A DNA stretch of 64,000 nt from SAR86 cluster bacterium SAR86B. Lineage in GTDB: Bacteria; Pseudomonadota; Gammaproteobacteria; Magnimaribacterales; D2472. The stretch lies in contig CAJJCW010000001.1 in NCBI GenBank assembly GCA_905182885.1, positions 565,256 through 629,255 of the forward strand, read 5' to 3'. The notes under the pieces are model-generated. The model was not told the origin of the DNA and did not search any database. It saw only the letters and a program-made list of their open reading frames with translations. The translations under genes and the position numbers were made by a program. Position 1 is the stretch's first letter. Each line of letters starts with the position of its first letter. This document shows, piece by piece, positions 57,110 to 59,894 of this stretch.

Positions 57110-58147
57110 CTATCTTTCCCTAATAATATCTGTTAAATAACTAACTTTTGCTGGATCTATGTCTGGGGTAATGCCATGGCCTAGATTAAAAATATAACCA
57201 GGATAATCCTCAAAAGCATCCAATATTTTGTATGTCTCTCTTTTAATTATGTCATTAGATTCCAACAAGATCTTTGGATTTAAATTTCCCTGTAATGAGA
57301 CTTTACCAGAGAGATAAGTAAAATCTTTTGGCTCCATACTCCAGTAAAGACTTAGGCAGTCTGTATTGGTATTTACTATGATTTCCGTTGAACACCTTGG
57401 CTCTCTAGCAAATAGAATTATTGGTGTGGATGAGGTTACTGGATCATTTTTTAATGAGGCTATCAGTGAAGAGATATAATTTAATGAATAATTTTGGTAG
57501 TCGGATTCGGTAAGAAGATTGGCCCAGGAATCAAATATCTGAATAACATCAGCTCCTGCTTTAACTTGCTCTCTAAGATATATAAAACATGCATCTGTAA
57601 GTTTTTGTAAAAAAATATGCGCTTCTATATTATTATTTTCAATAAATTTTTTTGTGATACTAAAATCTTTTGATGATCTTCCTTCGATTGAATAAGCAGC
57701 TAAAGTCCAAGGACTTCCACAAAAGCCTATTAAAGGAATATCTCTTGGAAGGGCTGACCTTATATTGCTCACAGCCTTATAGACATATGAAAGTTTATCC
57801 GCATCAAAAGGTTCAATGTCATGAACATCCTGAGCATTCCTTATCGGATTATCAAAAACAGGACCTTCGCCCTCTAAAAATTTAACCTTTAGGTCCATGG
57901 CATCAGGTATTGTTAATATATCTGAGAACAAAATCGAAGCATCTAATTCAAATTTATTCATTGGCTGGAGTGCAAGTTCGCAACAAACATCAGGGTCTTT
58001 GCACATGTCGAGGAAATTCTTAAATCCTTTTCTTACAGCTCTATATTCAGGCATATACCTTCCAGCTTGCCTCATATACCAAATAGGGGGAGTTAAAAGT
58101 TTTTCCTTATTTAAGGCCTTAAGAAATATAGAGTTAGAAATTGTCAT
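57110..58147 (-). CDS. hemE: Uroporphyrinogen decarboxylase
   Basis: HemE removes the four acetate carboxyls of uroporphyrinogen III in haem synthesis. The 345-residue protein starts with [19 protein letters not shown], has the catalytic Asp in [14 protein letters not shown], then [27 protein letters not shown] and [16 protein letters not shown]. It overlaps gltD by four bases. Confidence 0.97.
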
Positions 58148-59799
58148 GACACATATTTTATAATACTTTTAGCCGCTTCACGTCCTTCCCATATAGCTGT
58201 AACAACTAAATCAGAGCCTCTGACCATATCGCCACCTGAAAATATTTTTTTATTTGATGTTTGAAATTTATATTCTTGATGTTCTTCTGCAATGACAAGG
58301 CCGCTGTTATGAGTGTTTATATTAAATTTATCAAACCATTCTGATGGGCTTGCTCTGAAACCAAAAGCTATAACGACTGCATCTGCTTCATATATTGTTT
58401 CTGAGCCAGGAATGGGTATCGGAACCCTCCTGCCATTTTGATCAGGCTCTCCTAATTGTGTTTTAACAATCTTCACACCTTCGACTTTATCAGTGCCTAT
58501 TATATCTATTGGTTGAATATTAAATTCAAACTGAACTCCTTCTTCCTTTGCGTTTTGTACTTCTCTTTTTGACCCAGGCATATTTGCTTCATCTCTTCTA
58601 TATAAACATTGCACAGATTTAGCTCCCTGTCTTATTGCGGTTCTATTGCAGTCCATTGCAGTATCACCACCACCCAGGACTATAACTTTTTTACCTTTAA
58701 GGTTAATAAAATCTTTTTTGTTTTTTTGAAGCTTAAGAAGTTTTTTAGTACTTGAGATTAGATAATCGATAGCCTTATGAACCCCGTTTAGCTTTTCACC
58801 TCCAAAGCCTCCTTCGAGAGACGTATATGTACCCATTGCTAGAAAAACAGCGTCATAATCTTCATATAATTTCTTGAAAGGAATATCTTTTCCAACTTCC
58901 TTTCCTAAATGAAATTCCACTCCCATTTCTTCTAGAATTTTTCGCCTTCTTCTCACTACGGATTTCTCAAGTTTAAATTCAGGAATCCCAAAAGTTAAAA
59001 GTCCACCTATCTCCTCATTTTTATCAAAAACATGACTGTGCACTCCCGATCTTGTTAGGACATCAGCACAGGCTATTCCAGCTGGGCCTGATCCGACTAT
59101 AGCCACTTTCTTGTCAGTCCAATTTCTATAAGACATATCAGGTTTCCAGCCCATTTCAAAAGCTTTCTCCATTATATATTTCTCAGTTGATCCAATAGTA
59201 ACTGCCCCAAAACCATCATTAAGAGTACAGGCACCTTCGCATAGTCTATCTTGAGGGCAAACTCTACCGCAGACCTCAGGCAGACTATTTGTTGAATGAC
59301 ATAACTCAGCTGCTTCAATGATATTCCCTTCATTTACAAGTTTTAACCAGTCTGGAATATAGTTATGAACAGGGCATTTCCATTCACAGTAAGGGTTTCC
59401 ACAATCTAAACATCTATGAGCTTGGTTAGAAGCCTGTGTCTGATTATATTCACTATAAATTTCAACAAAGCTTATTTTTCTTTCATCTGGAGATTTTTTA
59501 ATTGGATCAAATCGACCAACTTCTAAAAATTGGAAATCATTATCAAGCTTTTCATGAGCAATATATTCATCTCTTCCATAAGAGCTTTTAGAAGGGATTG
59601 ATTGGGCTTCGAGGCCTATAATTTCATCCCGCCATTTATATAATTTAGCTTTAGCTTCATTTAAGTCGGAAATAGGGGCAAATGATTGAGTTTTGTACTT
59701 CCCATTAACTCTTAACTTGCCATAAAAATATGGAGACCTGGGTTGTGTGAAAAGTAAAAGACCTTTCTCAACTCTATATTGCTTATTTTTATTTTTCAT
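58144..59799 (-). CDS. gltD: Glutamate synthase small subunit with an integrase-arm-like N-terminal extension
   Basis: From about residue 90 this is a normal Glt[18 protein letters not shown], the Fe-S cysteines in [19 protein letters not shown] and [19 protein letters not shown] fold [22 protein letters not shown] fold [13 protein letters not shown], and [18 protein letters not shown]. GltD feeds electrons from NADPH to GltB. Uniquely, residues 1-85 are extra (551 residues in all against 470-480); [29 protein letters not shown] and [15 protein letters not shown] resemble the arm-type DNA-binding domain of tyrosine integrases. No Met lies between residue 1 and the GltD core, so this extension is probably made. 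gltB is divergent, unlike the usual gltBD operon. The integrase likeness is by eye only. Confidence 0.9.
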
Positions 59800-59813
59800 A
59801 TTTAGGAAGAACT

Positions 59814-59834
59814 TAGTATGACATAGTATGACAT
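59814..59834. repeat. Perfect tandem 10-bp direct repeat in the gltD-gltB gap
   Basis: TAGTATGACA occurs twice in a row plus a third-copy T, 15-35 bases before the gltD start. The unit is one helical turn, so both copies face the same side. A looser copy (TAGAATGAAG, 7 of 10) lies at 59855-59864, near a likely gltB -10. Direct repeats of this size are the usual targets of integrase arm domains, which makes the extra N-terminus of GltD notable. Confidence 0.75.
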
Positions 59835-59894
59835 TTACAGGATGGAATTGGTATAGTTTTATGTTAGAATGAAGAAGATCAATATATTTATTAC

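Follow-up and report, generated by a model that had tools for sequence, protein, structure and literature searches.

An integrase-arm-like domain on the glutamate synthase subunit GltD of SAR86 and a conserved tandem repeat near its start codon: a candidate autoregulating enzyme

The stretch of DNA analysed here, called the window, comprises 64,000 nucleotides (nt) of SAR86 cluster bacterium SAR86B (assembly GCA_905182885.1, contig CAJJCW010000001.1, positions 565,256 to 629,255); the genome of this SAR86 member amounts to 1.05 Mb in three contigs, and SAR86 is an abundant ocean bacterium. The window contains gltD, which encodes the small (beta) subunit of glutamate synthase and is transcribed divergently from gltB. 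Its product bears an N-terminal extension resembling the arm-binding domains of tyrosine integrases, and a perfect tandem repeat lies between both genes. The features concerned are the following.

58144..59799, minus strand: gltD, glutamate synthase small (beta) subunit, 551 residues with the N-terminal extension (open reading frame; Pfam Fer4_20 / Pyr_redox_2)
59602..59799, minus strand: integrase-arm-like domain, residues 1-66 (AlphaFold2, structural neighbours, profile matches to tyrosine recombinases)
59545..59601, minus strand: variable linker to the GltD body, residues 67-85 (predicted local distance difference test, pLDDT, below 50 at residues 67-69 and 71-77; variable length in the alignment)
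59814..59833, minus strand: presumed operator, two perfect 10-bp direct repeats (TAGTATGACA twice) with the core GTCATACTATGTCATAC at 59816-59832, present in 94 of the 94 extended relatives (in two with one mismatch)
59828..59857, plus strand: possible gltB promoter from a consensus scan, ATGACA and TATAGT at a spacing of 18, with TG before the second hexamer and the first hexamer inside the presumed operator
59895..60572, plus strand: first part of the divergent gltB, whose frame is broken before 60572 and continues in another frame from 60532 (open reading frames)

The N-terminal extension of GltD and its distribution

The normal GltD body is complete (Fer4_20 at residues 109-217 and Pyr_redox_2 at residues 230-539 by Pfam), as expected of a trigger enzyme. 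With Pfam, the remainder of the protein is GltD, with neither core-binding nor catalytic recombinase domains, so that it does not represent a whole tyrosine recombinase. The first-pass annotation had proposed that GltD has about 85 extra N-terminal residues and no methionine at which a shorter protein could start, and both statements agree with our data. Indeed, the next methionine after residue 1 is residue 210, and most of the GltDs of 69 other loci align from residue 76-84, the few tblastn alignments that start earlier beginning between residues 13 and 72; the SAR86 protein is therefore longer by ~84 residues.

The distribution of the extension was examined among 80 GltD loci of named genomes and in 203 genomes of the order, of which 107 belong to the window's family (f1) and 96 to the sister families f2, f3, and f4 together. 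Among the named genomes, the extension profile was found at 11 loci (L002-L012, SAR86 or SAR86-like; E values of 1.5e-33 or better) and not at the other 69, in which the best stray match had an E value of 0.038 and lay on the opposite strand. Within the order, 108 of the 203 genomes contain the extension, on GltD in f1 (94/107) and on another protein, PetA, in f4 (14/21). A match to the GltD core is present in 95 of the 107 f1 genomes, and 12 of the 13 f1 genomes devoid of the extension have no GltD match at all. The sole f1 GltD without extension, that of G066, is truncated by the end of a 7006-base contig; every f1 GltD with a visible start therefore carries the extension. The GltD orthologues of f4 (52-56% identity, 13 genomes) have open frames of just 467-500 residues.

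The ratio of nonsynonymous to synonymous substitution rates (dN/dS) is ~0.03 in the core of the domain and <0.01 in the first 100 residues of the GltD body, as measured on 53 non-independent pairs (44 genomes) that fell within the limits set on length and dS, out of 86 genomes. The extension is thus a real protein under purifying selection.

The gltB start is divergent in all 94 f1 loci with the extension. In f4, gltB and gltD are co-directional with a one-base overlap (six loci read), and the outgroup is co-directional as well (five loci); the identity of gltB in co-directional loci was confirmed by Pfam in one f4 and one outgroup locus. In the window, gltD is followed on the same strand by hemE (Pfam URO-D). 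The gltB frame is broken near 60532-60572 (pieces 59895-60572 and 60532-63999, plus strand), probably through an assembly or sequencing error, since the near relative G142 is open across the same place. In G084 (L143), gltD itself is split into several frames with the repeat intact, which probably reflects poor sequence.

An arm-type domain and its integrase relatives

The first-pass annotation had likened the extension to the N-termini of integrases, and both profile searches and fold neighbours lead to the same family. A profile (A2) was built of 29 rows selected among 85 distinct domain sequences, the window's own, and one PetA row (L155, whose coordinates were wrong, was omitted). Within the order, it matches at 6e-11 a 382-residue protein of G014 (f2) that PHROG phrog_1 identifies as an integrase. 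Across 369 genomes of the class, it recovers two SAR86 genomes and three non-SAR86 loci (L202, L203, and L204; E values of 2.5e-5 to 2.1e-4), all tyrosine recombinases by Pfam PF00589 and all matched at their N-termini, the domain match and PF00589 being in the same frame in L203. The extension is thus homologous in sequence to tyrosine recombinase N-termini. Matches within the order at E values of 0.001-0.1 (including G191 of f4, E 0.0995), most of which contain internal stops, were treated as noise, and in 398 genomes of the phylum searched at E 0.001 the window's own genome alone matched.

AlphaFold2 modelled residues 1-66 with a pLDDT of 85.3 and a predicted template modelling score of 0.65, as strands 7-11, 14-19, 22-31, and 34-39 followed by a helix at 46-65. 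The anticipated combination of a sheet and a helix is therefore predicted, with four strands instead of the three expected. In a structural comparison with 996 chains, ranks 2 to 4 are occupied by the arm domains of the P4-like, HPI, and HAI7 integrases, namely 3rmp_C (Z 6.5, root-mean-square deviation (rmsd) 2.4, 59 aligned residues), 3jtz (Z 6.1, 2.6, 59), and 3ju0 (Z 5.7, 2.5, 60). They share with the extension a sheet and one helix, but at Z scores of 5.7-6.5 and identities of 19-22% only. The AP2 domain 7et4_J (Z 5.2, rmsd 3.7, 55 aligned) and lambda Int 1z1b_A (Z 4.0, rmsd 3.4, 51 aligned) score lower.

Several results speak against this assignment. The first rank belongs to the unrelated methane monooxygenase regulator 6d7k_D (Z 6.8), and no Z score reaches 8, the value below which the tool cautions that an arrangement may be a common one. 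Foldseek returned no match under E 0.001, the profile found no match among Protein Data Bank sequences up to E 10, and no family of Pfam (up to E 10) or PHROG matches the extension. An arm-family hit in Pfam had been suggested as a check and did not come; the true integrases L202-L205 likewise give no arm-family match, and the Pfam arm models therefore fail to discriminate. While a fold at Z below 8 would not settle the matter alone, sequence comparison and structure prediction point the same way, toward an arm-type domain.

The integrase of G014 has the same N-terminal domain and is located as follows.

L205:1418-2566, minus strand: tyrosine recombinase of G014; tRNA-Phe at 2693-2768, minus strand

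Its N-terminus matches the PetA-fused domains of 8 genomes (2.3e-12 to 7.9e-9). The 126 nt between tRNA-Phe and the integrase ATG hold five TAACACA/TGTGTTA sites, of which two are in direct orientation at a distance of 10 bp; the integrase is followed by a gene for a DNA methylase (Pfam N6_N4_Mtase). A similar layout is known from IntS of KplE1, whose N-terminus is an arm-binding domain and whose gene has arm-type sites between a tRNA end and the ATG: excerpts of PMC2951348 describe intS as repressed by its own product, the arm-type sites of attL overlapping its promoter, and report an integrase promoter overlapping attL for 61.5% of tRNA-associated integrase genes. IntS differs from the SAR86 case in that its gene lies at a tRNA end and encodes a recombinase, whereas gltD has neither a catalytic recombinase domain nor a tRNA and carries the domain on a metabolic enzyme.

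Repeats at gltD and at two other genes fused to the domain

The perfect tandem repeat noticed earlier in the 95-bp gap to gltB (59800-59894) does lie there: both copies of TAGTATGACA are comprised within 59814-59833, 15-34 bp from the gltD ATG. Searched as GTCATACnnnGTCATAC, the repeat has one match in the window against 0.00 expected from 100 shuffles, and one match in the 1.05-Mb genome. Allowing up to 3 mismatches, this genome yields four more sites, each differing at 3 positions, and the reversed control yields eight. Hence, there is no sign of a wider regulon in the window's own genome, where no further site has 2 mismatches or fewer; the other genomes were searched for exact matches alone. 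Across the order, GTCATACnnnGTCATAC occurs in 92 of the 203 genomes, once in each, always in f1 and always adjoining an extended gltD; an exact search found it in none of the 96 genomes of f2, f3, and f4, and its reversed control had 0 matches in the 203 genomes. The two remaining extended genomes, G145 and G146, have the operator with one mismatch at the same place. The prediction that relatives with the extension should have the repeat is thus borne out in 94 of 94 (92 exact, 2 with one mismatch), and the absence of expected matches in shuffles together with the single occurrence in each of 92 genomes rules out a chance repeat.

Among these 94 sequences, of which 87 are distinct, both 7-bp cores as well as the T preceding the first core hold 1.8-2.0 bits per column, an invariance that is partly by construction since the rows were chosen by a loose form of the motif, for which all 94 qualified. 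An A-tract before the cores reaches 1.4-2.0 bits, and a weaker second block is located 12-21 bp upstream, with single columns up to 1.4 bits; most other columns stay below 0.7. The copies are exactly 10 bp apart and so face about the same side of the helix. The operator precedes the nearest start codon by 3-35 nt (nearest ATG, GTG, or TTG as taken by script); in G097, the ATG is 11 nt past the repeat.

The same domain heads the Rieske protein PetA in 14 of the 21 f4 genomes, ahead of the membrane anchor, which Pfam recognised as UCR_Fe-S_N in the two proteins scanned (residues 93-129 and 84-119). The pattern TTGAACAC...TGTTCAAA is present in all 14 fusion genomes, twice in each, in both instances immediately before the fused petA and nowhere else in the genome, versus 0 of the 7 domain-less genomes, 6 of which hold a full-length PetA match; domain and repeats are thus co-present or co-absent within the genus g22. 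The reversed control of this pattern gave one match (G189). Furthermore, the rpsI-petA gap is 155-185 nt with the domain (12 of 14 measured) and 7-14 nt without it (6/6); the gaps of G196 (10 nt) and G193 (7 nt) were read by eye, and G183 and G202 were left out. On a PetA tree of 18 genomes, which omits G202 and G183 for want of a full PetA body at their loci, the domain label needs 3 changes, and 2-3 in bootstrap trees. The petA repeats are partly inverted. Their pairs are 127-128, 138, or 147-151 bp apart (loci L144-L151 and L154-L159), that is, roughly whole helical turns, at a probability of about 0.007 versus a uniform spacing, a value that is uncorrected for relatedness and does not pin the period. 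Such steps would be compatible with looping of the DNA across the promoter, and are suggestive only.

A third host is found in f1, where G076 and G077 have the domain at the head of an indolepyruvate-ferredoxin-oxidoreductase-like protein (Pfam POR, TPP_enzyme_C, and DUF6537).

L152:95-3814, minus strand: oxidoreductase fusion, domain and TATACACA-type repeats
L153:3555-7277, plus strand: oxidoreductase fusion, domain and TATACACA-type repeats

Read by eye, the stretch before the oxidoreductase ATG holds three TATACACA-like sites and one inverted site, a pattern search finding part of them; also by eye, the third and the inverted repeats change in matching fashion between G076 and G077. The oxidoreductase is present in 4 of 26 genomes, including G074 with a partial match whose start is outside the view, and G072, where a domain-less version of the gene has its ATG overlapping the preceding gene's stop codon (TGATG). 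A core A[CT]AC appears by eye to be common to four classes of repeats (GTCATAC, TTGAACAC, TATACACA, and TTAACACA), and a resemblance to the lambda arm consensus is possible.

GltD as a candidate autoregulating enzyme

We favour, with a probability of roughly 0.78, the reading that the arm-type domain linked to a normal GltD binds the two 10-bp repeats, which would make GltD a trigger enzyme that regulates its own gene and has no target other than its own control region. Putative self-binding of GltD is strongly supported by comparative evidence from the sequences, and we infer physical binding and repression by the extension. In the proposed mechanism, a flexible linker would connect the domain to a GltD that is normal in all other respects, and the domain would bind the direct repeats in the gap separating gltD from the divergent gltB. 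Spare GltD on these repeats, beside its own start codon and the gltB promoter, would then most likely lower transcription by negative feedback, although activation of gltB is possible instead. Partner GltB, the state of the flavin or of the cluster, and glutamine are candidate signals that may free the operator; the tie of glutamate synthase output to redox or nitrogen state put forward in the first-pass annotation is likewise no more than a possibility.

Some observations weigh against this interpretation. The 94 extended genomes form one family, and operator and extension may therefore go back to a single event instead of 94 separate ones. On the PetA tree, no more than one change is forced by the starred branches, and the oxidoreductase case consists of two genomes. 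Furthermore, the promoter scan for gltB gave 1 site versus 1.0 expected by chance, and the best -10-like position of gltB relative to the operator, assigned partly by eye, differs among genera.

The alternative that survives best retains binding of the operator by the extension, which would activate or mainly balance gltB and gltD. In several genera, the likely -10 of gltB is further from the operator (by eye), and a bound protein would therefore sit upstream of the gltB promoter. Against this, the autoregulation of intS is negative (excerpts of PMC2951348) and PutA represses (excerpts of PMC8249747), so that we regard this variant as unlikely while granting it more weight than the others.

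It is improbable that the repeat serves a separate regulator (of nitrogen control, for instance) while the extension has another role, such as binding GltB, a membrane, or RNA, the two being co-inherited in one clade. Their confinement to one family does allow their association at gltD to be a single event, but a separate regulator would have no other such target, the exact repeat occurring once per genome. In addition, where the same domain is fused to PetA or to the oxidoreductase, a different set of repeats accompanies it in each case, with the strict co-occurrence (14/14 versus 0/7) within g22; the PetA label needs 3 changes (2-3 in bootstraps), even though the starred branches force 1; and a true integrase shows the same layout.

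Slightly less probable still is a regulation at the RNA level, with the repeats placed in the leader by the start codon and the domain binding mRNA or hairpins. The distance of 3-35 nt to the nearest start codon would favour it, as would the partly inverted repeats of PetA and the oxidoreductase, including the inverted pair that differs in matching fashion (by eye) between G076 and G077. The gltD repeat, however, is direct, its leader is no more stably folded than shuffled sequences (z 0.10), nor are two petA leaders (z -0.32 and -0.01), so that a structured leader RNA is not supported; besides, relatives of the domain bind duplex arm sites in DNA, and we count the spacing of the petA pairs in roughly whole helical turns against an RNA target. 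Lastly, a spurious 5' extension of gltD, left untranslated by a non-ATG start near residue 88 with the frame open by chance, would suit the alignment of most other gammaproteobacterial GltDs from residue 76-84 but is ruled out in practice by a frame kept in 94 genomes and a dN/dS of ~0.03 in the domain.

The first-pass annotation knew of no precedent for such a trigger-enzyme arrangement, a statement that has to be amended since PutA is a functional one (PMC5293562, in excerpt). According to excerpts of PMC8249747 and PMC5293562, trifunctional PutA, like SAR86 GltD as proposed, combines an N-terminal DNA-binding domain, a flavoenzyme, a divergent operator, and a single target. PutA differs by its ribbon-helix-helix domain, as opposed to the integrase arm type; GltD is moreover a subunit of glutamate synthase, and in SAR86 the device is found again on unrelated enzymes, each time with other repeats. 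BirA, NadR, and PepA are also enzymes acting as transcription factors but differ in their DNA-binding parts, BirA and NadR being listed as multi-target, and the trigger enzymes listed for E. coli K-12 number five (all from excerpts of PMC8249747). Since PutA works as we propose for GltD, the principle of the autoregulating enzyme is already known; the type of domain and the evolutionary route are possibly new. Among the matches listed from the open-licence literature, there was no SAR86 GltD or PetA fusion, no integrase arm domain on a metabolic enzyme, no such recurrence, and no joint movement of operator and domain.

As to its origin, the device is most simply explained if host genes were joined to the 5' end of an integrase gene, which would have supplied the operator as well as its reader; because both would arrive together, the new circuit would be functional at once. 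Mobile-element integrases are themselves held to have acquired arm-binding domains during evolution (excerpt of PMC8138268). We give an even chance to the broader proposal that integrase 5' ends were captured repeatedly at three genes, at former operon junctions, and provided GltD, PetA, and the indolepyruvate oxidoreductase with private operators as a self-control cassette. The domain tree tempers this proposal, as its branches are long and it settles neither the number of captures nor the donor, and the domain may possibly have been copied between host genes within SAR86. A profile search of viral contigs, using one peptide pattern, found no relative of the domain, and the G014 integrase had no match at 1e-5 among phage records; a viral source was rejected on these grounds.

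The three hosts are unrelated oxidoreductases. GltD and PetA are iron-sulfur proteins by Pfam, and we take the indolepyruvate oxidoreductase to be one from knowledge of its family, with a weak Fer4 match only; with three cases, this common trait may be due to chance. If the cassette proposal is true, the position of the domain N-terminal to the membrane anchor of PetA would make a subunit of the respiratory chain itself a regulator. One small domain and a 95-bp piece of DNA would suffice for a direct test of self-binding by GltD. Self-repressing enzymes are few, and the recurrence of the domain on PetA and on an oxidoreductase suggests a general route from mobile-element genes to host switches.

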